Assembly: GCF_041222825.1 (NCBI RefSeq)
Contig: NZ_CP139482.1
Coordinates: forward strand, 62,001-126,000
DNA: 64,000 bases
Origin: Candidatus Thalassolituus haligoni
GTDB lineage: Bacteria; Pseudomonadota; Gammaproteobacteria; Pseudomonadales; Oceanobacteraceae
Reading direction: 5' to 3'
The notes below the pieces were generated by a model. The model had not been told where the DNA came from and ran no database searches. It saw only the letters and a program-made list of their open reading frames with translations. Of this stretch, positions 39,708 to 62,248 are shown piece by piece (position 1 is the stretch's first letter; each line of letters begins with the position of its first letter). Position numbers and translations under genes: made by a program.

Positions 39708-40637
39708 TTACGGTACAAAGTTGATGGGGAACTCAACACTGGCCGTATCCACTTCTGGACGATCTTTGAATCGCATGCGACGGCATTGTGACAGCAGGCG
39801 CTTGTGAAGATCATCATCGTTCAGCTCACTGCGACCAATCTCGCAAGACTCAACCGCACCGGTTGGCGCAATTTTCAAAGCCAGTACCACTGTACCTGCC
39901 AGAGTCGGGTTTTTCTGCTGGGCGCGGCGATAGGCATTGAAGAAGCTTTGCTTGCTGGTTTCGAACACCAGACGCATTTCTTCCTGAGTCCGTTTGGTGG
40001 CGGCTTCCTCGGTCTTGCGAATTTCTTCGCTGGAGACTTCGACGGCCGTTGTCGCACGTTCACCCAATTGCTCGCCACTGGTGGCTGCTGTCAGGGTTGA
40101 CTCATCAATACCGTTCAAGGCAACTACTGCATTTGGATCCACAACGCTGCCAGCACCGACCGAGGCTTTACCATTATTGCTCAGTGCTGCACTGTTGGTA
40201 TCCAACTTGACGTTCGGGATCGCCGCAGCCAAGGCTGCCAACGAGTTCAGAGCGTCTGCTCCCAAAGCTTCCTTGACCTTATCCTGAGCTTTTTTACGCT
40301 CTTCTGGCTTCGCTTCTACCTTGGGTTTCGGTTTTGGCTTCGGTTTTTCTTCCGGTTTTGGAACTTCCGGTTTGGGTTCCTCTTTTTTCTCTTCCTTTGG
40401 CGGAGGAGGTGGCGGAGGTGGCGGAACCGGTTTTTTCTGTTCCAGCAGCTTGGCCAGGGTGGGCGGAATTTTTTCCAACTCACTCCGATCCGGCTCGGGT
40501 ACATCCATCATCGGGATCAAAACTCCGAGGATTGCGGTTAGCAACAGGGCTCCAATCAGGATGGGGATGTAACGCTTTTCACCTGTATCAACCCAGGGCA
40601 AGACAGGGATATGTCGATTTATGAGTGCTTCGCTCAT
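39708..40637 (-). CDS. TonB-like protein with AgmX/PglI-type C-terminal domain
   Basis: The 309-aa protein has a cytoplasmic N-terminus, one membrane segment (YIPILIGALLLTAILGVLI), a run of nine prolines and a long Pro/Lys/Glu-rich linker. Its C-terminal domain has GTVVLALKIAPTGAVESCEI then RMRFKDRPEVDTASVEFPINF, a TonB/AgmX-like pattern. It would carry motor movement from the inner membrane across the periplasm. It is the last gene of the operon, overlapping the ExbD-like stop by 4 bp, with a terminator behind. The linker is long enough to reach the outer membrane; that it does so is inference. Confidence 0.85.
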   Translation of the reverse strand: MSEALINRHIPVLPWVDTGEKRYIPILIGALLLTAILGVLIPMMDVPEPDRSELEKIPPTLAKLLEQKKPVPPPPPPPPPKEEKKEEPKPEVPKPEEKPKPKPKPKVEAKPEERKKAQDKVKEALGADALNSLAALAAAIPNVKLDTNSAALSNNGKASVGAGSVVDPNAVVALNGIDESTLTAATSGEQLGERATTAVEVSSEEIRKTEEAATKRTQEEMRLVFETSKQSFFNAYRRAQQKNPTLAGTVVLALKIAPTGAVESCEIGRSELNDDDLHKRLLSQCRRMRFKDRPEVDTASVEFPINFVP

Positions 40638-41140
40638 GGCGTACCTCCCTCATCGACTTTGTTAACCGCCAGTGAAATATTACTGAACGTCGCTTTTGAA
40701 CAGGTGTTCATCACTTTTTTCAGCAGCTGGTAGGGGGTGTCTTTATCACCGACGATGGTAATAAAACGACCCAACTCCAACATTTCTGGCGACAGTGGTG
40801 AGCGCTCAGCCATGTATTGCAGTTCGGTAAGAAGTGCATCAATGGTTTCGCCTTCTGTCGCTTCAGCCTGCGGTATGCCTATAACGGCACGACCCTGAAC
40901 CAGAATTTCCTGCTTGTTGACCATCACGACCAGATTTTCTTCTGGCATGTTTTCGGCAATCGAAGCGGGTAACTCGATTTGTTCACTGTCTTCAACTTTC
41001 ACATCGTTCTGGTTAACCATAAGGAAAAACACCAGGATGGTGAAAATATCCATCAATGCGGTCAGGTTCAGCGTGCTGCCACCTTTGTTACGCTTGTGGC
41101 TGCGAGCCATGCGCTTGGCGCGGCGGGACGTTTTTTTCAT
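40634..41140 (-). CDS. ExbD/TolR-like protein with the catalytic aspartate
   Basis: The 168-aa protein has one N-terminal membrane segment, LNLTALMDIFTILVFFLMV, in which the Asp of LMD corresponds to the proton-carrying Asp of ExbD/TolR. The periplasmic domain follows. It overlaps its ExbD-like neighbour by 4 bp (ATGA) on one side and the TonB-like gene on the other. The AglQ and AglS proteins of Myxococcus are comparable ExbD-type pairs. Confidence 0.9.
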   Translation of the reverse strand: MKKTSRRAKRMARSHKRNKGGSTLNLTALMDIFTILVFFLMVNQNDVKVEDSEQIELPASIAENMPEENLVVMVNKQEILVQGRAVIGIPQAEATEGETIDALLTELQYMAERSPLSPEMLELGRFITIVGDKDTPYQLLKKVMNTCSKATFSNISLAVNKVDEGGTP

Positions 41141-41655
41141 GGTGTCACCTCCGTTGCGGTCGCCAGATCAGGCGCTGCTCCGAGGGAAATGTCCGGAAAC
41201 AGGGCTGCATCAACCACTGACGTCACAACAACGGCAGGGTATATACGAACCGTATCCATCACTGATACCAGGGTCTGGTAATCAATACCTGGCTCTGGGA
41301 GCAGATTGATGTCGGTTTTCTCAGCAAATACGGGATCTTTTTTGATCTCTTGCAGGATGGTCGACAGTCCTTCGAAGTCGTAGCTTTCGCCTTCCTTCGG
41401 GAACGTCGCATGCACCACCGTTTGCAACAGATAGCTATGAGAAACTTGTATGCTGTCTGAGCGGATGATGACCTCGAGCGTCACATCTTTTGGGTCTACA
41501 ACACTAGGCTGATCGCCCGCCGGCAACTTGAGATCGATTACGGACAGCTGTGAGAACACCATGTTCATCAGCAGTACTGGTACCAGTACGATCATCAGGT
41601 TCATAAAAGATGTAACGTTGAGCTCCGCCTGTTCTTGATTGCGTTGGCGTCTCAT
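41137..41655 (-). CDS. ExbD/TolR-like protein with Asn in place of the catalytic Asp
   Basis: The 172-aa protein has the same single-span layout (LNVTSFMNLMIVLVPVLLM), but the residue aligned with the ExbD catalytic Asp is Asn (FMN). The periplasmic domain differs strongly from its neighbour's. It starts 13 bp after the ExbB-like stop. If its fold is ExbD-like it cannot carry protons in the usual way, so it may be a structural partner of the Asp-containing protein in a mixed dimer. Confidence 0.88.
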   Translation of the reverse strand: MRRQRNQEQAELNVTSFMNLMIVLVPVLLMNMVFSQLSVIDLKLPAGDQPSVVDPKDVTLEVIIRSDSIQVSHSYLLQTVVHATFPKEGESYDFEGLSTILQEIKKDPVFAEKTDINLLPEPGIDYQTLVSVMDTVRIYPAVVVTSVVDAALFPDISLGAAPDLATATEVTP

Positions 41656-41668
41656 TGGAAATTACATC

Positions 41669-42319
41669 TCACTTGTTGCCGGGAGTGGATTGGCCTTGCT
41701 TGCGCTCGGTAATGATGTTCAAAAACTTCACTCCGGCCATTTCAATGCTGTCGACAATCTCATTGGTTTTGGTCTGCAGATAAGTATGCAGTAACAACAG
41801 TGGAATCGCTGCCATCAAACCAAATGCGGTGGTGTTCATCGCAACCGAAATACTCTGCGACAGCAGGGTGGCTTTTTCTGCTGGTGCGGCGTTGGCAACA
41901 GCGGTAAAAGCAGCAATAAGACCCATGATAGTTCCAAGCAGCCCCATCAGGGTGGCAATGTTCGCCAAAGTGGCGACGTACTGGGTGCGTTTTTCAAGCT
42001 GGGGTACCGCTTCCATCAGACCTTCTTCAAGAGCGTATTCAATTTCTTCGCGACGCTGGCTGCCTGGAATTCGGGCAATGGCGGCAGAGAAAATATCGCC
42101 CAGTTTGGTACTGGATTCGTTGGCATAGTTCAGGGCTGCGCGCATATCACGGCTTTCCAGCATTGGCAGGATTTCGTCAAAAGCCTTGCGGTTACTCGAC
42201 TTTTCCTTGGTCAGGTAGAGCAAACGCTCCAGCGCAATGGCAATACCCACAGCCATGATAATGGCAATCGGGTACATAAATACGCCGCCTTCTTGAAAAA
42301 AACGTACGATGGAATCCAT
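41669..42319 (-). CDS. ExbB/TolQ/MotA-like channel protein
   Basis: The 216-aa protein has the three-span ExbB layout: FMYPIAIIMAVGIAIALERLLYL, a cytoplasmic helical loop, then ATLMGLLGTIMGLIAAF and NTTAFGLMAAIPLLLLH. It should form the proton channel around the two ExbD-like proteins. Its start is preceded by GGGG-rich DNA at 42325 and by a 161-bp gap with a hairpin, so the motor genes may have separate control inside the operon. Similar to AglR of Myxococcus at family level. Confidence 0.92.
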   Translation of the reverse strand: MDSIVRFFQEGGVFMYPIAIIMAVGIAIALERLLYLTKEKSSNRKAFDEILPMLESRDMRAALNYANESSTKLGDIFSAAIARIPGSQRREEIEYALEEGLMEAVPQLEKRTQYVATLANIATLMGLLGTIMGLIAAFTAVANAAPAEKATLLSQSISVAMNTTAFGLMAAIPLLLLHTYLQTKTNEIVDSIEMAGVKFLNIITERKQGQSTPGNK

Positions 42320-42480
42320 AGAATTTCCCCCAGATTTATTACGTGGTAGATAGTATTTTACTGTTAGCTTTCAAGCTGTTGTTGGTATTCAACAGCAGGA
42401 AAATTGCATTTAATCGACAACCGGCCATGCAAATACAGCTAATTTCACTGATTTGTCAGCCTACGCGATCCTTGTGTGAA
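42320..42480 (-). promoter_or_regulatory. Intra-operon gap with hairpin and possible promoter
   Basis: Arms GCTGTTG / CAACAGC (42375-42396) form a hairpin. Closer to the ExbB-like start, TTGAAA and TATCTA with 16-bp spacing could be a sigma-70 promoter. This is the only sizeable gap in an otherwise coupled operon, so expression of the motor genes may be adjusted here. Confidence 0.4.
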
Positions 42481-42777
42481 CTAATTCGCTTTCCTTTCCG
42501 TTGCCTGATTTCCGAAACCGTCTCTGAAACGTTTGGCATATTCAACTTCTAGCTGAAATTGTTTCGGTTGCAGCGGCTCGAAGCGTTCTTCCTCATAGCC
42601 ATTAATAGGTTCGAACGGTATTTCCACGTCGGGTGGGCTTTTCCATGAAGTAATTGTCATGATGCCGGCGTCTTCCGTACTGCCAAGGATGGAGATCCCT
42701 TCCAGTTGAATAACATCTGCTGCAATAGCGGTTACCGGAGAAAGCAAGGCCAGCAGTGCGAATAACCATGTTTTCAT
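42481..42777 (-). CDS. Small exported protein of the motor operon, 98 aa
   Basis: A signal peptide (TAIAA|DVIQ) is followed by about 78 residues with a beta-strand start (VIQLEGISILG) and Pro/Glu-rich middle (PPDVEIPFEPINGYEEERFEPL). No family was recognised. Its start overlaps the stop of the 248-aa lipoprotein gene by one base (TGATG). It probably is a periplasmic adaptor of the machine; this is inference from context. Confidence 0.75.
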   Translation of the reverse strand: MKTWLFALLALLSPVTAIAADVIQLEGISILGSTEDAGIMTITSWKSPPDVEIPFEPINGYEEERFEPLQPKQFQLEVEYAKRFRDGFGNQATERKAN

Positions 42778-43523
42778 CAGGAGTCTCCTTCCGAATCTGC
42801 AGCAGCCGCAGGCTGCTGGGTTGGCGCTTCACTAGGCTGGCTGGCTGCTTCGGCGGCAGCGGCAGCTTCTTGTGCCTGGGTGTTTTTGATGCGTTTGTCG
42901 AGATCCTGTATCCAGATTGTCAGTAGTGGATCTTCTTTCTTGTTCAGCTGCTGTGCTGTGCGGTACTGGAGCAATGCTTTCCCGTACTGCCTCATATACA
43001 GATCGTACAATATGCCCAGGTTATAGTGCAGATCGGGGTTGGGCACTGAGCACTGAATGGCTTTGGAATAGCTTTGTTCTGCCAGGGTAAAATCACCAAG
43101 TTCCCGTGCTACTGGCCCCATAGCCTGAAACGCAGGACAAAATTCGCTATTCAATACCAAGGCCTGATCAATGCTGGATTTACTGCCTTCAAAATCCCCG
43201 GTCTGGTATTGGGATAAACCCAGATTGACCCAGACGCCCGGATATTCCGGAAAACGCTCAGACATGATGATCCAGTGCTTCAAAGCCTGGTCATAGCGTT
43301 TTGATTTGAGCAAAATCAGGCCATGCTTGAACAGCCCCTTGGTTTCTGCATCAAGGTCAGCATCAGCAGAGTCATCCGGCCCGGTTTCTGCTTCTGTCTC
43401 TGCAGCTACTTGTTGTTGTGTTTCTTCTGGTTGGTCGGCGTTATCCTCGCCGTCGCTCTTCATCAACGAGCTACAGCCTGCCAGCACCATCACCAAGAGA
43501 AAACTAGCGAATCTCACTAACAT
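42777..43523 (-). CDS. TPR lipoprotein of the motor operon
   Basis: The 248-aa protein has the lipobox VLAGC (Cys17), an acidic Asp/Glu-rich linker, then TPR repeats (KRYDQALKHWIIMSERFPEYPGVWVNLG, visible as KRYDQALKHWI; GDFTLAEQSYSKAIQ), and an Ala/Gln tail. It is probably anchored to the outer membrane and acts as a scaffold. It overlaps the end of the 943-aa gene by 20 bp. Comparable TPR lipoproteins (GltE/AglT type) belong to the Myxococcus gliding machine. Confidence 0.85.
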   Translation of the reverse strand: MLVRFASFLLVMVLAGCSSLMKSDGEDNADQPEETQQQVAAETEAETGPDDSADADLDAETKGLFKHGLILLKSKRYDQALKHWIIMSERFPEYPGVWVNLGLSQYQTGDFEGSKSSIDQALVLNSEFCPAFQAMGPVARELGDFTLAEQSYSKAIQCSVPNPDLHYNLGILYDLYMRQYGKALLQYRTAQQLNKKEDPLLTIWIQDLDKRIKNTQAQEAAAAAEAASQPSEAPTQQPAAAADSEGDS

Positions 43524-46335
43524 AGCTCAATTCCTTTTCGTCCTTACGGTATTGGGTCGGTGCCAGGTCAGCCATGACATCGAAGCTCTTTTTGATCCAT
43601 TCATCGTAAATGCCGTCGTAGGTACGATTGATGTTTTTCATCTGCACGTCCATCGCGGCCTGCTCAAACGGGTAGGCCTGGTCTTCAAGCAGGAATTGGT
43701 ATTCCTCGAGTTCCAGCTCATCCAGTCCTTTTGGTCGTTCTGAGTCCAATAGCGCCTTGCTCAGTTGGGTATAGAGCTGACCAATACGATAGGTCGAGGA
43801 GGTGGTAAATTCGAGCACGCCCATCTCGACGGATTGGGTATACAACTCCTGAGCTTCTTGCATGGCCTTGTTCTTGATCGGAATACTCTTGTTGAGTGGC
43901 AAGGTCAGCGGCAGACTCTCGTATTTCAGTCGTGAAAACTCTGCCAACTCGTAGGAGGCACCAGCAGCCAAGTACTTCGAGCGTTCGGTTTGCTTGTCCC
44001 CGGCATTGGCATTCAGGGTAATGATTTTATCAAGCCAGAAACGACGCTTGTCTTCGTCCTTTTCATTGCCTTCCATGCCATACAGTTGCTCCAGCTTGTA
44101 GTGGGCTTCGATGGCGGGATCGAAAGGTTCCGAGTAGTTGTTGGCATAGCGCTTGAACATGACGATGGCGCTGCCAATGTCACCGGCTTTTTCATAATAT
44201 TCACCGGATTGGAAACAGGCGATGCGCTGTTCTTTCTTGTCTTTGGATGTACGCCATACATCCGCCAGAGCATTGGCTGCCGTCGCCCATTTTTCCTGCT
44301 TTTCATAGGTGAAAATCAGCTTGGTGGGAATATCCTGACTGAGTTTATGGTTGGGATATTTACGCTGGAATGCTTTTAGCGCTTTCTCTGCCCCGGCATA
44401 GTCCTCTATTTCAAACAGCATGGTGGCGGCATCGTATTCGGCAATGATGGAGTTTTCGCTGCCAGGAGTGACATCACCAATGCGATTCCAGCTGGCGGCT
44501 GCCAACTCGTAATCACCGGCTTCGCGGGCCTGCTCACCTTGTTTGTAGATCGCCGCCGCGAGTTTTTCGCGAATATCCTTGCGGGTTTTGCCATCAATCT
44601 TGTTGTACTTCAGTGCTTGCTGAAACGCTTCTTCTGCTTCGGTGTAATATCCCAGCTCAAATGCCGAGTGTCCTCGAACCAGTGCAGCACCATAGCGATG
44701 TTTGTCTGACAGATTATCCTGAATGCCCCAGGCCATGCGGGAAACAGACAGTGCCTCTTCATAGTTTTTGTCAGCCAGGAACAGCTCGGAAGTACTTACC
44801 AGAACCTTGCCACGCTCTTCATGCTCGGGGAAGGTATTGATAAAGCGCATGGAGTTTTCAGCACTTTGCTGACGCCATTCTGCTGCTTCATCTTCGTTGG
44901 TTGGTTTGTATTTGTTATAAGCCAATACCGTTGCATAGGCAGCCTCCGAGGCTCGCGGATGATCGGGGTATTGATAGGCTACGATTTCGTAATGATCACG
45001 GGCTTGCTTGTAGTTGCCGAGCTCGTAGGCGATCTCTGCCAGCAAGAAATGCGCTTCGGCGGCATCGGCGGCATCCGGGACACTACGTAAATAAATGTCG
45101 TACCACTTCGCCGCTTCGGCATAACGTGCTGCTTTTTCCGCACTGTCTTTGGTCTGTTGTGCCCAGCCGTGATTAAACTTGGCTAAATCCATAATATAGC
45201 CAGCGAGGGGTTCGCGAATCGTGGCGTGTACTTCTTCACCATGGTTAGCCCAATACTCACTGTCGATACCGAAACGGTCTATATAGTCTGCTTCGCTTTG
45301 ACGTTGCAGTACGGGGTAGCCTGCAGCAGCGTACTGGTCAACCATGTGCTGGTAATAAACCGGTGCCCGGTCACTATCGGGGTAGCGCTCGACATAGGCG
45401 GCCAGCGTCGACGCGCCACTCTGGTAGTATTTTTGCTCGTAGTAGAAGTCAGCCAGGCGATCATAAATCAGGTATTCGTAGTGGCGACGACCGTAGTGAT
45501 CAAAGAATTCGCCGACCTCTTCCCATTCACCACGGTAACTGAAAGCGACTGCCATGGTGTAAACGCTGTCCTTGAGGATTTCAAGGTCGGCACCACTGGC
45601 GTTATCAATCGCACTCTGGGTTGGGTAGTCTTCGTCAATCAGCCGAGCAAACGCCAGCAGGCTGTCATCGTAACGGCTTTGTTTAAACAGCGACCAGCCC
45701 AGCATGTAGCCAGCATTGCTGTAGTATTTATTGCCAATACGACCATGTTTTACCAGGCGCTGGAACGATTGTTCTGCTGCGACATAGTCGCTCATGGCAT
45801 AGCGCAGTTCACCAAGGCGGAATTCGGCATCAAGATAATAGAGGGAGTCCGGGTAGCGTTCGACCAGCTGTTCAAGAACCCTGGCGGTTTCTTCCGGCTC
45901 AGCTGCGATGTTGTAAGCTTTGGCTAGCTGATAGAGTATTTCATCATTGCTGGCGTTGTCTGGATGATCGGCCAGTAATGATTCGAAATCACGAATGGAG
46001 GCGGCAAGCACCTCCGGATCAACGGCTTCTTCTTCATCGGAAGTAAAGCTGTCGCCGGTCCAAGCTGCTTCTTGCTCGTTCAGGCGCAGCGCAGCAATAC
46101 GGCGGGAAGCCAGCATTGCGTATTGGTGGTGATCTGCGACTTCAATGTAAGCCCGATAACGTGCCACGACGTCTTCATTGGTGACAATCAGTGGCTCATT
46201 GGAAGGCGCTTTCAGTCCGTAATATGTGAGATCCGATATGGTGCCAGCCTGGTGTGGTTGTACCTGGGCGCAGCCAGCAGTTACAAGCAGACAGGACACG
46301 ACAGAGGACCATATCAGTGAGCGCCGGTCATTCAT
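43504..46335 (-). CDS. Large TPR lipoprotein of the motor operon
   Basis: The 943-aa protein begins with a lipoprotein signal (lipobox VTAGC, Cys22). The rest is a chain of TPR-like repeats (YRAYIEVADHHQYAM, then pairs such as SDYVAAEQSFQRL and GNYKQARDHYEIVAYQYPDHP), well over a dozen. The start at 46335 is chosen because it gives the lipobox and couples to the previous stop (ATGAATGA); an in-frame start at 46395 would bury the signal. It is likely an outer-membrane-anchored scaffold facing the periplasm, like the giant TPR proteins of the Agl-Glt machine. Confidence 0.88.
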   Translation of the reverse strand: MNDRRSLIWSSVVSCLLVTAGCAQVQPHQAGTISDLTYYGLKAPSNEPLIVTNEDVVARYRAYIEVADHHQYAMLASRRIAALRLNEQEAAWTGDSFTSDEEEAVDPEVLAASIRDFESLLADHPDNASNDEILYQLAKAYNIAAEPEETARVLEQLVERYPDSLYYLDAEFRLGELRYAMSDYVAAEQSFQRLVKHGRIGNKYYSNAGYMLGWSLFKQSRYDDSLLAFARLIDEDYPTQSAIDNASGADLEILKDSVYTMAVAFSYRGEWEEVGEFFDHYGRRHYEYLIYDRLADFYYEQKYYQSGASTLAAYVERYPDSDRAPVYYQHMVDQYAAAGYPVLQRQSEADYIDRFGIDSEYWANHGEEVHATIREPLAGYIMDLAKFNHGWAQQTKDSAEKAARYAEAAKWYDIYLRSVPDAADAAEAHFLLAEIAYELGNYKQARDHYEIVAYQYPDHPRASEAAYATVLAYNKYKPTNEDEAAEWRQQSAENSMRFINTFPEHEERGKVLVSTSELFLADKNYEEALSVSRMAWGIQDNLSDKHRYGAALVRGHSAFELGYYTEAEEAFQQALKYNKIDGKTRKDIREKLAAAIYKQGEQAREAGDYELAAASWNRIGDVTPGSENSIIAEYDAATMLFEIEDYAGAEKALKAFQRKYPNHKLSQDIPTKLIFTYEKQEKWATAANALADVWRTSKDKKEQRIACFQSGEYYEKAGDIGSAIVMFKRYANNYSEPFDPAIEAHYKLEQLYGMEGNEKDEDKRRFWLDKIITLNANAGDKQTERSKYLAAGASYELAEFSRLKYESLPLTLPLNKSIPIKNKAMQEAQELYTQSVEMGVLEFTTSSTYRIGQLYTQLSKALLDSERPKGLDELELEEYQFLLEDQAYPFEQAAMDVQMKNINRTYDGIYDEWIKKSFDVMADLAPTQYRKDEKELSYVSEIR

Positions 46336-48262
46336 ATTCACCCAGGCCTCCGCTGTTGGTGTTGCGACGCAGCTCGTTGTCGTAAAGTCGGGCAATAGAC
46401 AGGCGAGTGGTCGCGAGGTAATCCTTGAGTCGGTCTTTCAACATGCCGATATGGCTCTGAGCAACGGTGACAATTTGCTGCTGCTGTTTGGTGTGGAGTG
46501 CTGTCAGTGTTTGTTCCAGCTGGCTGAGTTTGCTGGCGGCGGCTTCGATGGTTGCCAGGTGCGCTTCAGAGTGGGCGTGAAAGGTACCCACCTGTTCCCG
46601 TAGTCCATTGACATTGGTCAGCTGGGTATTTAAATCCTGATATTGCTGCTGCAATAGAAGTTGCTGTTTTTTGAGTGTCCATGCCCTTTGTGGTAAAGAC
46701 TTGCTCAGCTGCCACTGGGAAATGCCTTGCAGGAGCGCGGCCTGCTCACGGATATCTTGTTCCATGGGCGTTTCGCCACTGGATTCCTTGGCAATAGCGA
46801 CCAGCTTATTCAGCTGCTGTAACTCTGATTCATTGGCAAAACCAAACGCTTGGCGCCGCTGTTCCTGAATGCGCTGGTCGATCAGTGCGATCTGTTGTTG
46901 CAGCTGCCTGGAGCTGCTTTCTACCTGCTCCAGTCTGCCGGACTGTGCGACCTGAACATAAGCCGCCAGATTGGCGAGCTTCTCAGCCTGTGCAAGAGAC
47001 AGCTGTTGTTGTTGCCGTTGAACCCAGTCCAGCATGCTGCGAATGTCCAGCAGACGCTGCTGCTCCTGGATGAAGGCGCTGGTACTGAGCAATCCTTCAA
47101 GGTTGCGGCTAGTGGGTGATTCGGTGACGCCCTGAGGGTCAGCACTGAGTATATTGTCAGAGGTTGCCGACTGGCGAGCTTCCCAGCGCGCTACCCACTG
47201 AAGTAAGGTTGCCGGATTGTTGAGATTATTGAGCTGCTCAAGTGCCAACGTCATACGGTTTTCTGTGTATTCGTAGACGGGCAGGGAGGGCACCCCACCA
47301 TTCATTAGTTCGGCAAGGTAGGATGTTGCCATCAATGATTCGAGTGCATGAATGTCCAGCAGGGGGAAGTGCTCCTGCAATACCCGCCATGGCTGTAATG
47401 CCTGGTCGTATTGCCAGCGCTTTGACAATGCCCAGCCATATTGCAGCAATGCATCGGAGGTGTAGGGGCCATCCTTGGATACCTGACGCAAATAACCAAT
47501 GGCTTCGTCATAATGTTTGTTGCGTAACTCGTATTTTCCCGCCGTTAAACGGAAGCGATCATTCAGCGCAGTTTGCTGTTCATTTTCCGGATCATTGACC
47601 AGAAAATCGGACACCCACTGCTGCAAGTCGTCAGCAGATATTCCCTGGCGCATTTTTGTCAGCATCAGGTTATAACCGGCAAACCGGTACCAGTGGCTAT
47701 CCTCATCAATCTGACTAAAAGCCTCTTCAGCTTGCGGGGTCTGATCTCGATTGGCGTATGAGGTGGTGGCTATAAAGGCTGCTTCGGCTTCATCTGCCGG
47801 GTTCAGCAAAGCGTCGCCGGCCATCGCCTTACTGACCAGTTGGCCAGCTTGCAGCCAGTTACTTCGGTCGGAGGCGTTACGGGCCAGCATGAACCAGGTA
47901 TTTCCCATTCCTGGAGAGTGACTGAGTGACGGATCACGGAGCAACGCACTGGCGTAGGAATCCATGCCCAAGTCTGACAACCCGGCGGGTAGTGTGTACA
48001 TGATGTCCATATCGGCGAGCGTTGGTTCTGCGTCACTGTCTGACATGGCAACCAGAGGGTTGCTGGTCAGATAGTGGAAGAAATACACACGCTTGCCCAG
48101 CTCGTGATTCAGCACATCGATTGGGGTTTTCAGTACCGGAGCTGTGGCACTTAGCGCAGATACAATGCTGTTATCTGACGCCGTAGGCTGCGCTGCACAG
48201 GTAGTACTGCTTACCCAAGCGGTAGCCGCTACGGCCAGAGCGAGTAATCCTGACTTTTGCAT
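46328..48262 (-). CDS. Exported helical/coiled-coil protein of the motor operon, 644 aa
   Basis: A signal peptide (STTCA|AQP) is followed by TPR-like helices in the first 330 residues (YDEAIGYLRQVSKDG; YDQALQPWRVLQEHFP), then a Gln/Leu-rich coiled coil of about 250 residues (QQLALIDQRIQEQRRQAF type). Its stop overlaps the start of the 943-aa gene by 8 bp. No named family was recognised. It is probably periplasmic and could bridge to the cell wall or outer membrane. Confidence 0.82.
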   Translation of the reverse strand: MQKSGLLALAVAATAWVSSTTCAAQPTASDNSIVSALSATAPVLKTPIDVLNHELGKRVYFFHYLTSNPLVAMSDSDAEPTLADMDIMYTLPAGLSDLGMDSYASALLRDPSLSHSPGMGNTWFMLARNASDRSNWLQAGQLVSKAMAGDALLNPADEAEAAFIATTSYANRDQTPQAEEAFSQIDEDSHWYRFAGYNLMLTKMRQGISADDLQQWVSDFLVNDPENEQQTALNDRFRLTAGKYELRNKHYDEAIGYLRQVSKDGPYTSDALLQYGWALSKRWQYDQALQPWRVLQEHFPLLDIHALESLMATSYLAELMNGGVPSLPVYEYTENRMTLALEQLNNLNNPATLLQWVARWEARQSATSDNILSADPQGVTESPTSRNLEGLLSTSAFIQEQQRLLDIRSMLDWVQRQQQQLSLAQAEKLANLAAYVQVAQSGRLEQVESSSRQLQQQIALIDQRIQEQRRQAFGFANESELQQLNKLVAIAKESSGETPMEQDIREQAALLQGISQWQLSKSLPQRAWTLKKQQLLLQQQYQDLNTQLTNVNGLREQVGTFHAHSEAHLATIEAAASKLSQLEQTLTALHTKQQQQIVTVAQSHIGMLKDRLKDYLATTRLSIARLYDNELRRNTNSGGLGEYE

Positions 48263-48265
48263 GAC

Positions 48266-48772
48266 TTACCAAGCCTTCAGAGTAGCAACTGCGCTGCGTT
48301 GGGCGGTGTTGTCCGTAATAGAAAGCAAGAGTTTGAGATGGTCGCCGTTTTTACGGAAAACCCCCTCATAGACCAGATCACGAACACGCTTGTTTTCGTC
48401 ACGTCCACGCACGACAACTTTCAACAGGTGATTGCCGGGTGCCACTTCAAGGTCGGCCAGCGGCTGGACAGCACCAAACTGAAGGGCCTGGATTTCTTTT
48501 TCCGTATAAAGATAGTTAACGGGAGTAATACCATTGCCAGACACTGTGATTGACATGGGGGTAAAGAATTTACCGTTACTGAGTGCCAAATACAGTGACG
48601 CCTTGGTACTAATCGGGCTGATCAGTTGCTTTTCGATGGCCGAGAGCTCGCTGCTCAACTCAATCACCGAGCGTTTGGCTGAATCGATTTCAAGCTGAAT
48701 GTCTTCTGGGGTCGCTGCCACGGCTTGGAAAATACCGAAGAACCATAGCATCCCTGCAACTAAAAACTTCAT
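48266..48772 (-). CDS. Exported protein with coiled coil and beta domain, 168 aa
   Basis: A signal peptide (FQAVAA|TPE) is followed by a short coiled coil (DIQLEIDSAKRSVIELSSEL) and a beta-rich domain with the pattern ADLEVAPGNHLLKVVVRGRD, like domains that decorate cell-wall proteins. The ATG at 48772 has GAGG 5 nt upstream; GTG at 48778 is two codons earlier. Its stop is 3 bp before the start of the 644-aa gene. Function not recognised. Confidence 0.78.
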   Translation of the reverse strand: MKFLVAGMLWFFGIFQAVAATPEDIQLEIDSAKRSVIELSSELSAIEKQLISPISTKASLYLALSNGKFFTPMSITVSGNGITPVNYLYTEKEIQALQFGAVQPLADLEVAPGNHLLKVVVRGRDENKRVRDLVYEGVFRKNGDHLKLLLSITDNTAQRSAVATLKAW

Positions 48773-48782
48773 AACCACCTCA

Positions 48783-49301
48783 TCAACGTTGATGTACTAC
48801 GCCGTCCCCGGATAACCAGTGACTCAGGGCGCGGCGAGTGAATTCCATATTTCTGAAAAGGCTACCTGCGTACAGGTAATCCAGTGTTCCGTCAGGGCTA
48901 ACCAGCATTACGGCGGGCAATGGGTTGATTTGCCATGCCCTGGTCAGTTTCTGGTTGTATGCCAGTAACGGCAGACTTGTATGGGGAGCATCCTTGACCA
49001 ACTGATCATCGGTATCCCATATCACCCAGGTAACCAGGCCGTTTTTGCTGTACTGACGTGCCAGTTGCTCATACTGCTCCAGTGCTTCCCGGCATTGGTG
49101 ACATGGGCCGACCCAAATCAGCATTACCGGCTTGCCGCGCTGCTCATTCAAGCTTTTTGCGTAGCCGCCCATGACCGGAGGAAGCGCCAGCTCGGCCAGC
49201 GTGTCTCCAATCGACAGTTTGCTCGAGGCTGTGTCAGCAACGGAAAAACTGGCGATCAGAGCGGCCAGGACTAGTAGTAAAATCCGACTGCTATGCTCCA
49301 T
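48783..49301 (-). CDS. Thioredoxin-like (TlpA/AhpC-type) exported protein of the motor operon
   Basis: The 172-aa protein has an N-terminal signal or anchor and a thioredoxin fold with active site VGPCHQCREALEQY (CHQC), a cis-Pro region PLPAVMLVSPDGTLDYLYAG, and GDTLAELALPPVMGG at the start. It is probably a periplasmic thiol-disulfide protein. It overlaps the barrel gene before it by 31 bp. A redox protein inside a motor operon suggests that some partner needs disulfide handling, or that it acts as a non-catalytic scaffold. Confidence 0.85.
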   Translation of the reverse strand: MEHSSRILLLVLAALIASFSVADTASSKLSIGDTLAELALPPVMGGYAKSLNEQRGKPVMLIWVGPCHQCREALEQYEQLARQYSKNGLVTWVIWDTDDQLVKDAPHTSLPLLAYNQKLTRAWQINPLPAVMLVSPDGTLDYLYAGSLFRNMEFTRRALSHWLSGDGVVHQR

Positions 49302-50248
49302 TGCAGACCTCGGTGCGAACCTTCTTGGTTAAGTACTTCGTCATCGACGTGGTAGTAGCGGGTATCGGTACCAATCCAGTAGTCGCCCATCATCACCTGA
49401 AGAGATGTCCCTACGCCGAGGTACATGCCATGGCTGCTGCCAGTGAACTGTTCACCGATAACGCCATCTACGTTCAACTGCCATGGCAGAAACGTTTCGC
49501 CATCAACACTGGTAATACCTTTGAGCAGTGAATAGCCGATTCCGGCGGTAATGACACGGAAGGCTGCATGCTCCTTCAACTCGGTATTACCGTTATCATC
49601 CTTGATGGTCTGGTTGCCAAACGAGGTCAGGCCCAAATCGATACTGGCCAGGGCATCCATACGGTCGGTCAGGTGATAACGGACAGAGCCGCCAAACAAC
49701 AGGCTGTCGCCATATTCCGCAGACGTTTGCTGACCCAGTGACATGCCAATCAGAGCTTTCTGTTCCGGAATACCATCGGAAAAATCAAATGTGCGGGGGA
49801 TCGGTTCAAAGATCTCTGCCGTTCGGGGAACCGCAGATACGCCAACGAGGGGCAGCAACCCTTGCATCACGCTGGCTCCGTCCAGAGCCGAGCTGGTATT
49901 GACGGCTACTTCGTCTGCCATATAGCTCTTTTCTGTGCCCATTTGCGCCATTCGGGACAACAGTTTTTCCATCATCGCCGGGTTGTCAAAGGCAGACGAT
50001 GCCGGAGGCGTTTCCTTTTGAACCATGTGCAACAGCTTTTCGAGCACTTTCGGATCGTTCAGAGCCTCGGCATTGCCCGGAGCCAGTTTGGCGTCAGATT
50101 TGGCCTTGTCGGCGACCATACCCAGCAGCTTTTGCAATACGGCAGGGTCGTCAAAGGTCGATGGAGAAGTCTCGGCAGCTGCAATTGACGACGCTGCCAG
50201 GAGGAAACCCAGTGCAAGACTGGATCTTTTCAGAAACGAATTTTCCAT
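49271..50248 (-). CDS. Outer-membrane beta-barrel protein with N-terminal KLL repeats
   Basis: The 325-aa protein has a signal peptide (SIAAA|ETS) and three to four N-terminal repeats of the form DP.VL.KLL.MV (DDPAVLQKLLGMV, NDPKVLEKLLHMV, DNPAMMEKLLSRM). A barrel domain follows from about residue 150 and ends in aromatic residues (VGFYY), as expected for BAM substrates. Its barrel resembles the Myxococcales-type CglE/OMP_myx_plus family. It overlaps the first gene of the operon by 19 bp. The repeats may bind a periplasmic partner. Confidence 0.85.
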   Translation of the reverse strand: MENSFLKRSSLALGFLLAASSIAAAETSPSTFDDPAVLQKLLGMVADKAKSDAKLAPGNAEALNDPKVLEKLLHMVQKETPPASSAFDNPAMMEKLLSRMAQMGTEKSYMADEVAVNTSSALDGASVMQGLLPLVGVSAVPRTAEIFEPIPRTFDFSDGIPEQKALIGMSLGQQTSAEYGDSLLFGGSVRYHLTDRMDALASIDLGLTSFGNQTIKDDNGNTELKEHAAFRVITAGIGYSLLKGITSVDGETFLPWQLNVDGVIGEQFTGSSHGMYLGVGTSLQVMMGDYWIGTDTRYYHVDDEVLNQEGSHRGLQWSIAVGFYY

Positions 50249-50964
50249 ACTAGGGCCAACGCTCCATGATTTGCACTATTGCCAGACAAGGCTTGCTGGA
50301 CTTGAACCCGGCCGCCGATACTGACGTTGTAAGCTATATTCCAGTTGATATCGGTTGTGGCTGAAAGCAGCGGCACGGTTGTGTCGTCACCCTCGTCGTC
50401 CCAGCGGGTTGAACCGCCTGAACTCTTGCCAACACCAACTCCCAAATATCCATCCCATGACCAGCGACCGTTCTCGGCGAAAGGAAAGCGCTTTCCTGCC
50501 TCCAGAGAGTACCAGTCATCATTCGTGTCGGTAGAACGGGTAATGCGTACAGCCGCTGCCTGATCAAACAAAATAAAGTTGGCACCGAGTGTCAGAGCGG
50601 TTTCAGAGGTTGCAGCCAGTTCAAACTGGGGATTGTTTTCGTCACTATTGTCACGAAACTGCAGTGGCTCCAGGCGCTTGATGTTTTCTGGCAACGCTTC
50701 GAGCGAGTCGATACTGATCCAGCCCTGATACTCTCCAGCCTGTACATACAACCAGTCGAGCTGGCGTTTCAGGGGGATAAGCGCCGTATCAGACGGTATG
50801 TCCGTCGAAACCGGATAGGTATCTGCTGGACCCATTCTTAACTGAATGGGTGCTGCGGTCGCAACAGAAACGAGGCCGACACTCAGTGCCAGAGCCTTGG
50901 TCAGCATGAGCAGTCTGCCGAGATGGAACATCGGACGCTGCTTTGTTTCTGGATTCGCCTGCAT
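50230..50964 (-). CDS. Outer-membrane beta-barrel protein with SH3-like domain (first gene of the motor operon)
   Basis: The 244-aa protein has a signal peptide (ATAA|PIQL), an SH3b-like domain (LRMGPADTYPVSTDIPSDT, then LDWLYVQAGEYQGWISIDSL) that could touch peptidoglycan, and a C-terminal barrel ending ALVWKIRF. It is a second member of the same outer-membrane family as its neighbour. ATG 50964 has AAGGAA 11 nt upstream; ATG 50931 is a possible later start. It is preceded by a good sigma-70 promoter. Confidence 0.85.
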   Translation of the reverse strand: MQANPETKQRPMFHLGRLLMLTKALALSVGLVSVATAAPIQLRMGPADTYPVSTDIPSDTALIPLKRQLDWLYVQAGEYQGWISIDSLEALPENIKRLEPLQFRDNSDENNPQFELAATSETALTLGANFILFDQAAAVRITRSTDTNDDWYSLEAGKRFPFAENGRWSWDGYLGVGVGKSSGGSTRWDDEGDDTTVPLLSATTDINWNIAYNVSIGGRVQVQQALSGNSANHGALALVWKIRF

Positions 50965-51052: not shown

Positions 51053-51741
51053 CACAGTGTATCAATTATGTTACATCACGTTAATTCAGACACGTTTTGT
51101 GCACTTCGTCGACCAAAATAAAAATAATGGGCAGATGACGAGGTGGCGAGCCTAGCAGCCTAATTGGACGGTTTTATGTCAGTTGGAATACAAATAGAAG
51201 GGGCAGCGGTGATTGTCCGACATGGCGATTCAGAGCAAATTTCCTGACAAATGCTCATTTTATGGCACCGTTGCTGCCCTGAAGGCAGGCAAGCGCGTTC
51301 GCACCCCAATAATATTAATCCCTGCGGTGATCAGAGCTGCTGGTCATTTGCTTGTATTCAACAAAGACAACTAAATATGAGTTGAGGCTGGAATATTGGG
51401 CGTTGCTATCTGTTTTTGAGCTAACAAAAGCGATTATCTGAACGGATTAATTTCACAAAATGTGAATTGATTCCGGTTCAGTGGGCATGCCTTTGCTCTC
51501 TTGAGTCGTCAGAATATAGATAAATTGTCGGATTGCTTGCCGATCCAAAAAGCCGCGTTGGCGGCGTGATAGCGCGCTATCTGGCTGAAACACGGTTAGC
51601 GGCAATGGCAATAAGGACAGTCGCGGCCGATATCCAATCAATCTGAAAAAGTTGTTACATAAATTTACATAAACGGGGATATTATGCGGTAACAGGGTTC
51701 CGAGCGGGATCGGTTCATGTGCTTCTGTGGCGGGAAAATGG
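51053..51741. other. Long gap with a perfect palindrome
   Basis: About 690 bp AT-richer than its surroundings, between the divergent motor operon and the PAS-GGDEF-EAL gene. It holds TTCACA-N3-TGTGAA at 51452-51466, a perfect inverted repeat. A minus-strand open frame at 51453-51752 has no ribosome site and overlaps the start of the GGDEF gene, so it is not called. No RNA gene was recognised. Confidence 0.5.
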
Positions 51742-53640
51742 ATGTCTTTCACCTCATCGCGTATTACTGATAATTATGGTTGGCTGGAAAACTACAGCCA
51801 GCTGATTTTACTGCTAATGGTCGGAATTATCTTGGCTATGCCCTTGATGAGTGGGGCAGGTGTGCGGTATTGGCTGATGTTCTGGGGGCTGACGACAGCG
51901 CTGCTAGTGACTTATCGTGCCCGGCTGTTACAGCGTACCCAGAGTCATTTGCAGCAGCAAAGCGAGTTGTTGCAGGCCATTTGTGATGGCCTGCCCGATG
52001 GGGTGTTTTTCAAGGATCGTCGCGGGGTGTACTGCTACGTTAATGAACAAATATCTCAAGGAATTGGCCGCGACCCTGTGGGTAAAACAGACTTTGAGCT
52101 GTTTGATGCCGATGTTGCCCGGCGGCACCAGAGTGTTGATGAGGAAACGATTCATCAAGGTGCTCGTTACCGTAATGAGGAATGGGTAACGTCGGCAAAT
52201 GGTGAGCGTATTCTGATGGAAATCAGCAAGTCGCCACTTTTTGACCGTCAGGGGCAATGTCTGGGGGTGCTCGGTGTAAGTCGTGATGTGACCGAGTTAC
52301 GCAAGATTCAGAACAACCTTGAATTTATTGCTCATCATGATGCCCTCACTGGGTTGGCCAATCGTACCCTGTTGTCGAAAAAATTCGATTATGCGTTACG
52401 TCTGGCACGACGACAGGGAGGAAATCTGGCGGTGCTGTTTTTTGATCTCGATCAGTTCAAGGGGATCAATGACACCTTTGGCCACGATGTCGGGGATCTG
52501 CTGCTACAGGACGTTGCCCGTCGTTTCTGCAGTAATCTGAGAGATTCTGATCTGTGCGCCCGTCTTGGCGGCGATGAATTTATTCTTGTGCTACCGGAGT
52601 CAGGAACGCGTGCCAGCCTGACTTCCAAGGCTGAACAGCTGTTATCAGTTATTTCCGAACCGTACCAACTGAATGGTCATCTGCTTTCCCTTAGTAGTAG
52701 TGTTGGCATCAGCCAATTTCCTCAAGATGGCGACAATTTTACGATGCTGGTTCGTCATGCCGACGCCGCCTTGCACCAAGCCAAGCAAAATGGCCGCAAT
52801 GGATTTTGCTTCTATGAACCGTCGATGCTTGAAACTCTAAACGATCGATCGACCCTGGATCATGATTTGCGTGATGCGGTCAGCCTCAGTCAGCTGGCGA
52901 TGATGTATCAGCCACAATTTCGTTTTGGTGACAACCAGCCGCGACGGGTCGAGGCGCTGATGCGATGGTTGCATCCGCAGCTGGGTAATGTGTCACCGGT
53001 GGAATTTATTCCTATCGCAGAAACGACTGGCCAGATTCACAGCATGGGCCAGTGGGCACTGGAGCAGGCTTGTAAGCAGTTTTTGGCCTGGCGTGAACAG
53101 GGGTTATTGCTGGAAAAAATCGCCATTAACGTGTCGGCGATTCAGATCAACGCCGGATTTGCCTCACGGCTGATGGCGTCGCTGGCAGACATGGCATTTG
53201 ATCCGGCCTGGTTGGAGTTGGAAATTACTGAGACGGCGATGATGAGTGGTATTACGGAAGTCACCCGTCAGATCAGCTTGCTGCGTAATCAGGGGGTCGA
53301 ATTCTCGATTGATGACTTTGGCACCGGCTACTCATCTTTAAGCAAACTCAAATCCATGCCGGTGACGGTGCTGAAGATAGATCAGTCGTTTGTGCGGGAT
53401 ATCAACGACGATATCAGTGATTATGAAATCGCCCGGGCCATTATTCTGATGGCCAAAAGCCTTGGCTTAACGGTGGTGGCTGAAGGGGTGGAATCGCGTG
53501 CGCAAGCTGCGATTCTTCAGCGGCTGGGATGTGACTGGGGGCAGGGGTTTCTGTTCAGTCCACCCTTAACGGGCGACGATTTTTTAAATCGATACGCCGA
53601 CAGTGCACTCCGTCGACCCTCTGTGGTCGGGATCGAATAG
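51742..53640 (+). CDS. Membrane PAS-GGDEF-EAL protein (c-di-GMP metabolism)
   Basis: The 632-aa protein has two membrane segments in its first 65 residues, a PAS domain (AICDGLPDGVFFKDRRGVYCYV), a GGDEF domain with intact RLGGDEF, and an EAL domain with intact EALMRW, ITET, DDFGTGYSS and KIDQSFV. Both activities could exist, so it may make or break c-di-GMP according to the PAS signal. The ATG at 51742 is preferred over the GTG at 51727. It is divergent from the motor operon across 780 bp; a shared function is only a guess. Confidence 0.92.
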   Translation: MSFTSSRITDNYGWLENYSQLILLLMVGIILAMPLMSGAGVRYWLMFWGLTTALLVTYRARLLQRTQSHLQQQSELLQAICDGLPDGVFFKDRRGVYCYVNEQISQGIGRDPVGKTDFELFDADVARRHQSVDEETIHQGARYRNEEWVTSANGERILMEISKSPLFDRQGQCLGVLGVSRDVTELRKIQNNLEFIAHHDALTGLANRTLLSKKFDYALRLARRQGGNLAVLFFDLDQFKGINDTFGHDVGDLLLQDVARRFCSNLRDSDLCARLGGDEFILVLPESGTRASLTSKAEQLLSVISEPYQLNGHLLSLSSSVGISQFPQDGDNFTMLVRHADAALHQAKQNGRNGFCFYEPSMLETLNDRSTLDHDLRDAVSLSQLAMMYQPQFRFGDNQPRRVEALMRWLHPQLGNVSPVEFIPIAETTGQIHSMGQWALEQACKQFLAWREQGLLLEKIAINVSAIQINAGFASRLMASLADMAFDPAWLELEITETAMMSGITEVTRQISLLRNQGVEFSIDDFGTGYSSLSKLKSMPVTVLKIDQSFVRDINDDISDYEIARAIILMAKSLGLTVVAEGVESRAQAAILQRLGCDWGQGFLFSPPLTGDDFLNRYADSALRRPSVVGIE

Positions 53641-61559: not shown

Positions 61560-62248
61560 CGGTGTTGCTGCATACTCCGTTGTTCTGGACGGCATTAACC
61601 ATTGGCTGTTTTTTACTGGGCCAGCATGTGTACCGGCTGACCGGTAACCTGGTGCTGCTGCCTCCGATTCTGACTGGCTTTGGTCTGGTGATTATGACCT
61701 TGAAGCTGACCGACACGCCGTACTCTGTATATATGGAAGGTGGACGGTATCTGCACGATATGCTGGGGCCAGTTATCGTGATGCTTGCGGTGCCGCTATT
61801 CCAGCAATTAAAAGCGCTGCGCCAGGATGCTATCCGTATTGCTCTGGCGGTCACGCTGGGCAGTGCTACGACGTTGGCCTGTGCTTGGGGGCTGACGATC
61901 TGGTGGATTGGTGATCCGATGCTGGCGCAGACGATTCTGACCAAGTCTATTACGACCCCGGTTGCGGTTGCTATTACCAGTCAGCTGGGTGGTGATCCGT
62001 CGCTGGCGGCTGCCTTCGTTATTCTGACGGGGTTGCTGGGAGTGATTTTGATATTGCCGACTATGACCTTGCTACGCATACGCCAGCCCGAGGCCATCGG
62101 GATAACACTGGGAGTCTGTGCTCATGCGATTGGCACCAGCCGGGCACTGGAGCTGGGTGAGCGGGAAGCGGCCTACGCGGTAACCGCCATGACCCTGACT
62201 GCCACGCTGCATGCGATTGTATTACCCCTGGTGGCCGGTCTGCTCTAG
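61556..62248 (+). CDS. LrgB-family membrane protein
   Basis: The 230-aa protein has six to seven membrane segments and LrgB signatures: SITTPVAVAITSQLGGDPSLAA (TKSITTPVAVAI) and GVCAHAIGTSRALELGERE, shown as CAHAIGTSRALE. ATG 61556 overlaps the CidA-like stop (ATGA). It works with the preceding protein. Confidence 0.92.
   Translation: MTVLLHTPLFWTALTIGCFLLGQHVYRLTGNLVLLPPILTGFGLVIMTLKLTDTPYSVYMEGGRYLHDMLGPVIVMLAVPLFQQLKALRQDAIRIALAVTLGSATTLACAWGLTIWWIGDPMLAQTILTKSITTPVAVAITSQLGGDPSLAAAFVILTGLLGVILILPTMTLLRIRQPEAIGITLGVCAHAIGTSRALELGEREAAYAVTAMTLTATLHAIVLPLVAGLL

Follow-up and report, generated by a model that had tools for sequence, protein, structure and literature searches.

A twelve-gene Agl-Glt-type locus of Candidatus Thalassolituus haligoni and the aspartates of its motor

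What does a machine of the Agl-Glt kind, known from Myxococcus gliding, do in a gammaproteobacterium? The question is raised by twelve minus-strand genes (50964 to 39708) in the window, the whole 64,000-nucleotide stretch that was analysed, positions 62,001 to 126,000 of contig NZ_CP139482.1 of Candidatus Thalassolituus haligoni (assembly GCF_041222825.1). The initial annotation had likened the locus to the Myxococcus Agl-Glt motor. This link is right but not new, as Luciano et al. reported the core complex from gammaproteobacteria in 2011, including an extra gene and assigning no function (PMC3169522). The literature search covered open-access papers, with subscription papers and preprints outside its scope. 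Within it no later paper on the function of the gammaproteobacterial core was found, and the core still has no assigned job, as the initial annotation had said. Two features had escaped that annotation. One is that the first of the two ExbD proteins, ExbD1, lacks the proton-carrying aspartate, a motor variant not found in print in the same literature; the other is the membership of the barrel protein bar2 in the GltA/GltB family.

Placement and conservation of the core

The kinship of the motor was read from trees, in both of which several branches are long. Seventy channels were placed in a maximum-likelihood tree, where a single clade (support 100/98) unites the 40 from core loci with those of AglR type from myxobacteria. 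The AglR-type rows number eight (M1, M2 and others), one of which was labelled a paralogue in the input yet is of the M2 type. A further 22 channel rows, drawn from the genomes already represented, fall outside the clade; these are AglR-profile matches with no assignment to TolQ, ExbB or MotA, and they include some but not all of the ten proteins that match MotA_ExbB in the window's genome. In a tree of 57 ExbD proteins, ExbD1 groups with AglQ (90/79) and ExbD2 with AglS (100/97). These two branches together are separate from 13 ordinary ExbD rows (99/98).

An ordinary TonB or Tol-Pal paralogue, energising uptake receptors or envelope constriction, is suggested by the named families that fit best, namely TolQ and ExbB for the channel, ExbD for ExbD1 and TolR for ExbD2, and by the TonB-type C-terminus of the linker. 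However, no motor protein reaches the equivalog cut-off of TolQ, ExbB, ExbD or TolR, and Myxococcus AglR and AglS likewise fall short. The window's channel scores 67 bits for TolQ against a cut-off of 221, and 45.5 bits for ExbB against 206. It has been reported that TonB and TolA bind their motor through a histidine of the linker helix (PMC12204202); this residue is absent from 38 of 39 linkers and present in one. Neither TolB nor Pal was found among the twelve genes. The Tol-Pal and TonB-ExbB-ExbD systems have a homologous channel, ExbD and linker C-terminus, but lie on separate branches and lack both the paired AglQ/AglS-type ExbDs and the set of tetratricopeptide repeat (TPR) proteins and barrels. 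Because the trees place the channel and both ExbDs with AglR, AglQ and AglS, a paralogue of either system is rejected and this explanation is highly improbable. On sequence grounds, membership in the Agl-Glt core kind is firm, and the initial annotation's separation of the locus from ordinary Tol-Pal and TonB systems holds.

The same kinship was found by profile searches among the Glt-slot proteins. Named genomes were reached through MglA and nine were searched with GltD, six myxobacterial and three of Geobacteraceae; the AglR search covered five of the myxobacterial genomes and the window's genome. Myxobacterial loci were assigned to published clusters by size and content. These are M1 (AglR of 245 amino acids (aa), AglQ of 162 aa), G2 (GltC of 673 aa), G1 (NF033760 GltG at 1083 bits, NF033758 GltE at 741 bits and NF033764 CglF at 143 bits), the nfs cluster and a cluster just downstream of mglA. 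The GltD profile matches all four Myxococcus GltD homologues (beside mglA 1.7e-85, G1 9e-66, nfs 1e-62, a fourth cluster 7e-47); in the three genomes of Geobacteraceae its matches did not exceed a weak TPR level (8e-9 at best). Myxococcus and Hyalangium proteins are matched in the GltE slot (7e-29 to 5e-50) and, by the linker profile, in the GltG slot (2e-15 to 4e-21). The GltC profile is the weakest of the four (6e-11 to 2e-3 on myxobacterial GltC-slot proteins), and on G2 GltC the GltD profile scores slightly above it. Record BNCN01000011.1 (L080), titled Comamonas sp. KCTC 72670, carries the glt, agl and nfs clusters of a Myxococcus relative and an MglA 99% identical to the query; it is probably mislabelled.

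The cluster beside mglA, which we take to be G4 of the 2011 description, shares the strand of that gene and begins about 125 nucleotides (nt) downstream of it (L189 4337-14599, also L195). Its order, p170-like, GltC, GltD, GltE, GltF-like and GltG, is that of the window, but motor genes were not found there and the linker is longer (445 aa). No function is assigned to it in the 2011 paper (PMC3169522).

Conservation was followed in 40 loci of relatives, collected through the GltD-like protein and then used to build the profiles. A GltD match below 1e-50 is present in 40 of 55 genomes and in 32 of the 34 genomes of the window's family. The order p170-GltC-GltD-GltE-p98-AglR-ExbD1-ExbD2-TonB, in which TonB denotes the linker gene, is complete in 37 of the 40 loci; the other three (L063, L077 and L078) are cut by contig ends. 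The small exported protein p170 was found in 37/37 uncut loci. With the window included (41 loci), bar1 was recognised in 29, bar2 in 30 and the thioredoxin-like gene in 20, and 19 of these 20 thioredoxin-like members, the window's among them, have a CxxC motif.

Across the class, 370 genomes were sampled, of which 90 have GltD at 1e-30 or better; the figure is 88 among the 364 good genomes, and 70 of the 273 genera are represented. From this list one locus was taken from each of 40 other families, here called the wider set. All nine block genes are present in 29 of these 40 loci. Two of the remaining 11 are contig-cut (L283, L296), in seven the profiles failed to recognise one or two genes, and in L285 and L298 the motor genes do not follow GltD within the stretch collected. 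The plasmid collection gave no GltD match. Conservation of the nine-gene block is far beyond chance, and the set travels as a unit.

The one-aspartate form of the motor

The site compared in the ExbD proteins is that of E. coli ExbD Asp25 and Myxococcus AglQ Asp28 (Asp28 counted on L230). The site compared in transmembrane segment 3 (TM3) of the channel is presumably that of Glu176 of ExbB. ExbD1 has Asn at the compared site in 39/39 loci, the window included, and in 35/36 of the wider set; ExbD2 has Asp in 39/39 and 37/37, respectively. The myxobacterial AglQ-type proteins carry Asp in six of seven cases. At the Glu176 position the channel has Val or Ile in all 40 loci and in 36 of 37 of the wider set.

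Channel, ExbD1 and ExbD2 genes are all present in 82 loci, for which the three residues were tabulated jointly; two further loci lack one gene. In the order channel, ExbD1, ExbD2, the states are Val-Asn-Asp in 69 loci, Ile-Asn-Asp in 6, Glu-Asp-Asp in 5 and Lys-Asp-Asp in 2. They are fully linked in 82/82 loci, most of which are not independent rows: channel Val or Ile goes with ExbD1 Asn (75) and Glu or Lys with Asp (7). The seven ExbD1-Asp loci comprise two of M1 type, two of M2 type, two of Sorangium and the gammaproteobacterial L305, while Nannocystis has Ile-Asn-Asp. Since ExbD1 Asn is linked with channel Val or Ile in 75 of 82 loci, the usual gammaproteobacterial motor appears to be a one-aspartate form.

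Two loci stand beside this pattern. L305 (5727-13564) has a gammaproteobacterial core with the Myxococcus-like Glu-Asp-Asp state, and its p170 and GltC are apparently fused in one 757-aa frame. A second ExbB-ExbD-ExbD set of the same genome (G000:C1:1125289-1126517; L328, L338, L006) lies outside the Agl branches and has one Asp ExbD and one Asn ExbD; Asp/Asn pairs therefore also occur outside Agl motors.

In M. xanthus, the AglQ D28N change was reported to abolish proton conductance, to paralyse the gliding machinery and to stop sporulation (PMC3858216). An Asn of the ExbD1 type in AglQ is not mentioned in the available portion of Luciano et al. 2011 (PMC3169522), and no open-access paper on it was found. 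A review considers it possible that a single motor contains AglQ and AglS as coupled subunits (PMC9120999), and the choice between AglQ/AglS heterodimers and homodimers is left undecided in PMC9389320.

The Asn of ExbD1 would be irrelevant if ExbD2 homodimers formed an ordinary two-aspartate motor and ExbD1 were a separate structural part. The undecided dimer state of AglQ and AglS leaves room for this (PMC9389320), but the AglQ Asp alone is essential in M. xanthus (PMC3858216), and the near-fixed Asn tracks the TM3 residue of the channel in 82/82 loci. Such a linkage is unexpected because this explanation puts ExbD1 outside the channel, which makes the explanation possible but doubtful. In the one-aspartate form, the Asp of ExbD2 would be the sole available aspartate and an ExbD1/ExbD2 heterodimer the simplest axle; the form is proposed because ExbD1 has Asn and the channel is without the polar TM3 residue of two-aspartate motors.

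It may tentatively be suggested that Agl motors have two natural forms. The gliding and spore-coat motor would be the two-aspartate form. The usual gammaproteobacterial motor would be an obligate heterodimer driven by the single aspartate of AglS, its AglQ a natural, fixed D28N and its AglR altered to suit, and a general mover of surface cargo, serving heme or flavin redox proteins in some lineages and giant adhesin-like fibres in others. The need for two aspartates hinges on whether AglQ and AglS form heterodimers or homodimers (PMC9389320). A conserved motor that bears the change which stops its Myxococcus counterpart, together with a matched change in its channel, makes this question directly testable.

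Function and candidate cargo

Homology to Nfs and Glt, together with the neighbour genes, suggests a stand-alone Agl-Glt core whose one-aspartate motor moves, exports or energises outer-membrane or surface cargo and not the cell, a reading to which an even chance is given. Protons would pass the AglR-ExbD1-ExbD2 complex, which would turn or step. Through the GltG-like linker this motion would cross the periplasm and reach GltD, GltE and GltC as well as the GltA/B-type barrels of the outer membrane, where the cargo would be moved, exported or energised. In 2013 the core was suggested to be a basal transport machine (PMC3858216). The Nfs spore-coat machine of Myxococcus (G3) has the same barrel family, TPR proteins and GltF- and GltG-type proteins. 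It moves around the spore surface and does not move the cell (PMC3858216); it differs in being driven by the gliding-cluster AglRQS motor with two aspartates.

Surface motility, one of the options of the initial annotation, or gliding would make the locus a machine like Agl-Glt itself. The core parts are indeed alike: the M. xanthus gliding machine (G1, G2 and M1) likewise has a channel, two ExbDs, TPR proteins, a GltG-like linker and a GltA/B-type barrel. However, it is spread over three loci in Myxococcus and forms one operon in the window, where the AglQ Asp28 needed by Myxococcus gliding is replaced by Asn and the TM3 Glu of the channel by Val. GltH, GltI, GltJ and GltK were not recognised among the twelve genes, no search having been aimed at them. 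MglA was found in 0/50 relatives, the window's genome included, in a search without an internal positive control; the same query found the Myxococcus loci separately. Luciano et al. argued that the core is insufficient for motility (PMC3169522). Cell motility is unlikely because MglA was not found in any of the 50 genomes, and a gliding machine is on the whole a very unlikely explanation.

Candidate cargo was sought among the neighbours of 81 loci (the window, the 40 relatives and the 40 loci of the wider set). By the AglR tree 21 of them belong to clade A, which includes the window, and 13 to clade B; the other 47 include the wider set, which no tree placed. The counts are rough, as the profiles were built from the same set and many stretches end inside the locus, and family support was checked on example loci. 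A lipoprotein of the HZS_alpha/propeller type occurs in 22/81 loci, in 12 of 13 clade B loci right after TonB and in 10 of the 47 others upstream of bar1. Its HZS_alpha match exceeds the cut-off in L060, L270 and L302, falls short of it in L066 of clade B and is absent in L072; the upstream lipoproteins have two or three CxxCH motifs each (counted in the wider set only). The presence of one lipoprotein family in two different places points to a working link with the machine. A giant protein of DUF11/isopeptide-repeat type follows TonB in 8/81 loci (its DUF11 repeats pass the cut-off in L284, L290 and L280 and stay below it in L286), and a fibro-slime protein is present in 12 of 13 clade B loci. 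In many relatives' loci the large propeller/heme-type lipoprotein, the giant repeat protein and the fibro-slime protein are candidate cargo, and recurrent neighbours of this kind give concrete candidates for a core that has lacked an assigned function since 2011. The cargo of the window would be encoded outside the operon locus.

An extracytoplasmic redox machine is a rival explanation, whose motor would work for heme lipoproteins, thioredoxin and a flavinylated barrel (DUF3570), with the window's thioredoxin-like gene as a remnant of the module. DUF3570 with DUF4266 was found in 12/81 loci and ApbE in 13/81, and the HZS-type lipoprotein counted above fits as well. DUF3570, DUF4266 and mostly thioredoxin-like genes stand in the core locus of L059, L060, L270, L272, L278, L281, L282, L287, L294, L295, L302 and L303. 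In L279 (2-2176, minus strand) the TonB gene of the core is followed by a 725-aa stretch with 21 CxxCH motifs and an MtrC/MtrF-type domain. Genes for ApbE, DUF3570, DUF4266 and thioredoxin-like proteins form a known flavinylation cluster (PMC8238504); by term search, ExbB and gliding are not mentioned in the available text of that paper. However, the DUF3570, DUF4266 and ApbE genes fall within the group of others (12/47 and 13/47), with 0/21 in clade A and 0/13 in clade B in the stretch collected. DUF3570 also occurs without an operon link in 34/50 relatives, and in the window's genome it lies far off, at 3366237. As a redox partner for the cysteine pair of the linker, the thioredoxin-like protein fits in clade A, with two Cys in 21/21 loci and the gene in 17/21, but it tracks the pair poorly overall: of 76 loci, 33 bear the gene, and in 16 of those the final 100 linker residues hold at most one Cys. 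A redox machine is unlikely.

Several observations weigh against a cargo-moving core with a one-aspartate motor. Proton conduction by such a motor is itself deduced, and ExbD2 might form homodimers. The channel/ExbD1 pair has perhaps changed together in only two or three places of the tree at most. The machine is dispensable, because GltD is missing from G001, of the same genus, and from G011 (two of the 34 family members). An HZS-type, giant, DUF3570 or ApbE gene is present in 41/81 loci, but 51/81 are without both types of large protein; the window's locus has no cargo gene, nor any of these four types, and clade A lacks the large proteins. Genes for vWA (15/21) and MoxR/CoxE (16/21) do recur in clade A, but as a partner the vWA-MoxR-CoxE set was rejected: in the window's genome the vWA gene is not beside the operon, in G002 it is unmatched and in G003 it has a weak partial match, both genomes bearing the operon, and a conserved neighbourhood suffices to explain the adjacency. 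Finally, the small exported protein p98 could not be equated with GltF, as hhalign gave 4.6% and 6.6% against 4.4% for an unrelated control, which is not significant.

Composition of the operon and extent of the core

The twelve-gene minus-strand operon of the initial annotation was confirmed, coordinates included (Table 1). All junctions are short overlaps or gaps save one of 161 nt ahead of the channel gene, between p98 and AglR. From the first gene onwards, bar1/bar2 overlap by 19 nt and bar2/thioredoxin by 31 nt, followed by gaps of 4 nt (thioredoxin-p170) and 3 nt (p170-GltC). GltC/GltD overlap by 8 nt, provided that GltD begins at an inner ATG at about 46335, which is probably its true start. 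The overlaps of GltD/GltE and GltE/p98 are 20 nt and 1 nt. A gap of 13 nt separates AglR and ExbD1, and ExbD1/ExbD2 and ExbD2/TonB overlap by 4 nt each. Promoter-like sites show no excess (9, against 11.5 in shuffles).

Table 1. Genes of the operon, beginning with the first gene (ORF, open reading frame)
Gene	Coordinates	Strand	Features
bar1	50230..50964	-	exported, SH3-like N-terminal part, probable C-terminal barrel
bar2	49271..50248	-	GltA/GltB/NfsA/NfsB-family outer-membrane barrel with N-terminal repeat extension
thioredoxin-like, exported	48783..49301	-	active site CHQC; AhpC-TSA 3.9e-7; ResA 5e-9 (below cut-off)
p170	48266..48778	-	small exported protein, 170 aa
GltC-like	46328..48262	-	exported TPR/coiled-coil protein; weak TPR matches
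GltD-like TPR lipoprotein	43504..46395	-	TPR; lipobox Cys is residue 42 of the ORF
GltE-like TPR lipoprotein	42777..43523	-	Cys17; NF033758 GltE 5.4e-8 (below cut-off)
p98	42481..42777	-	small exported protein, 98 aa, GltF position
AglR-type channel	41669..42319	-	ExbB/TolQ family; MotA_ExbB 8e-28; Val at ExbB Glu176 position
ExbD1, AglQ counterpart	41137..41655	-	ExbD 9e-13; Asn replaces proton-carrying Asp
ExbD2, AglS counterpart	40634..41140	-	ExbD 8e-16; Asp retained
GltG-like TonB/AgmX-type linker	39708..40637	-	one inner-membrane helix, Pro-rich spacer, AgmX/PglI C-terminal domain with two Cys

The part types named in the initial annotation agree with the domain matches to MotA_ExbB, ExbD (two proteins), AgmX/PglI, TPR, AhpC-TSA and the barrel family of bar2; for bar1 a barrel is deduced from homologues. 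The linker matches NF033768, the AgmX/PglI C-terminal domain, at 5.3e-15, and NF033760 GltG at 8.4e-5, below its cut-off. The core of 2011 has GltC, GltD, GltE, GltG, AglR, AglQ and AglS in one cluster with an extra conserved gene, and the window's set shares this; it adds a GltA/B-family barrel and a small protein in the GltF place. In that paper GltA, GltB and GltF were regarded as confined to Myxococcales and Bdellovibrionales (PMC3169522).

The window's bar2 is the sole TIGR04565 match in its genome, at 3.2e-6 and below the family cut-off. Its homologues in L059 and L066 are full members (1e-50 and 1e-48), and its profile aligns with the Myxococcus G2 and nfs barrels in hhalign (95.7%, E 9e-9). 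By these profiles bar2 is a member of the GltA/GltB/NfsA/NfsB barrel family. The Myxococcus-type genome G056 has five TIGR04565 members, namely the two barrels of G2, the two of nfs and a fifth from another glt-type cluster; 14 control genomes have none. As a marker of glt clusters only, the family holds in G056 (5/5) but fails in Nannocystis, where two of eight matches are over the cut-off in L267, in which GltD was not found. In the window's genus bar2 is longer than elsewhere, with an N-terminal extension that by eye holds several DDPxVLQKLLxMV-like motif copies ahead of the barrel and is possibly a periplasmic arm.

The window's bar1 has only a weak SH3 match (0.022). It is taken for a barrel because its homologues show barrel-family matches: those of L059 and L060 match TIGR04565 at 1.5e-9 and 5e-5 (below cut-off), and TIGR04211 SH3 as well. 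The bar1 profile aligns with bar2 (89%, E 2e-6) and with the Myxococcus barrels (82%, over 37 columns only).

Neither p98 nor p170 has a family match at E 0.1 or better, and single-sequence AlphaFold2 gave no usable model of p170 (mean predicted local distance difference test score 38.6). The p170 profile has matches at the corresponding position in the Myxococcus cluster beside mglA (3.6e-3 and 9e-4), and hhalign with the gene at that place gave 84.7% (E 6.7e-6). This gene is a likely homologue, and p170 itself probably corresponds to the extra core gene that the 2011 paper left unnamed and described as being without a myxobacterial homologue. The p98 profile has weak matches in the clusters beside mglA (1.5e-3 and 0.055). 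NF033764 matched four myxobacterial proteins (2e-42, 1e-19, 1.4e-7 and 2e-5), left one of Nannocystis unmatched, and matched none of the three gammaproteobacterial p98 proteins scanned. As judged from these profile matches, the core is larger than described in 2011, with a GltA/B-family barrel and with a p170 that likely has a myxobacterial counterpart.

Downstream of the operon lie an Rrf2/NsrR-like regulator and a gene assigned by eye as ParE-like; upstream are parC and a gene for a GGDEF/EAL protein. The latter (51727-53640, plus strand) is divergent to the operon, and an ORF of similar length is present there in L039 and in neither L040 nor L041. In the available text of an alkane proteome of T. 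oleivorans (PMC6304351), gliding and TPR are not mentioned. The window also encodes, at 54-8132 on the plus strand, a giant surface protein of 2692 aa with bacterial Ig and cadherin-like repeats and a C-terminal OmpA-like barrel.

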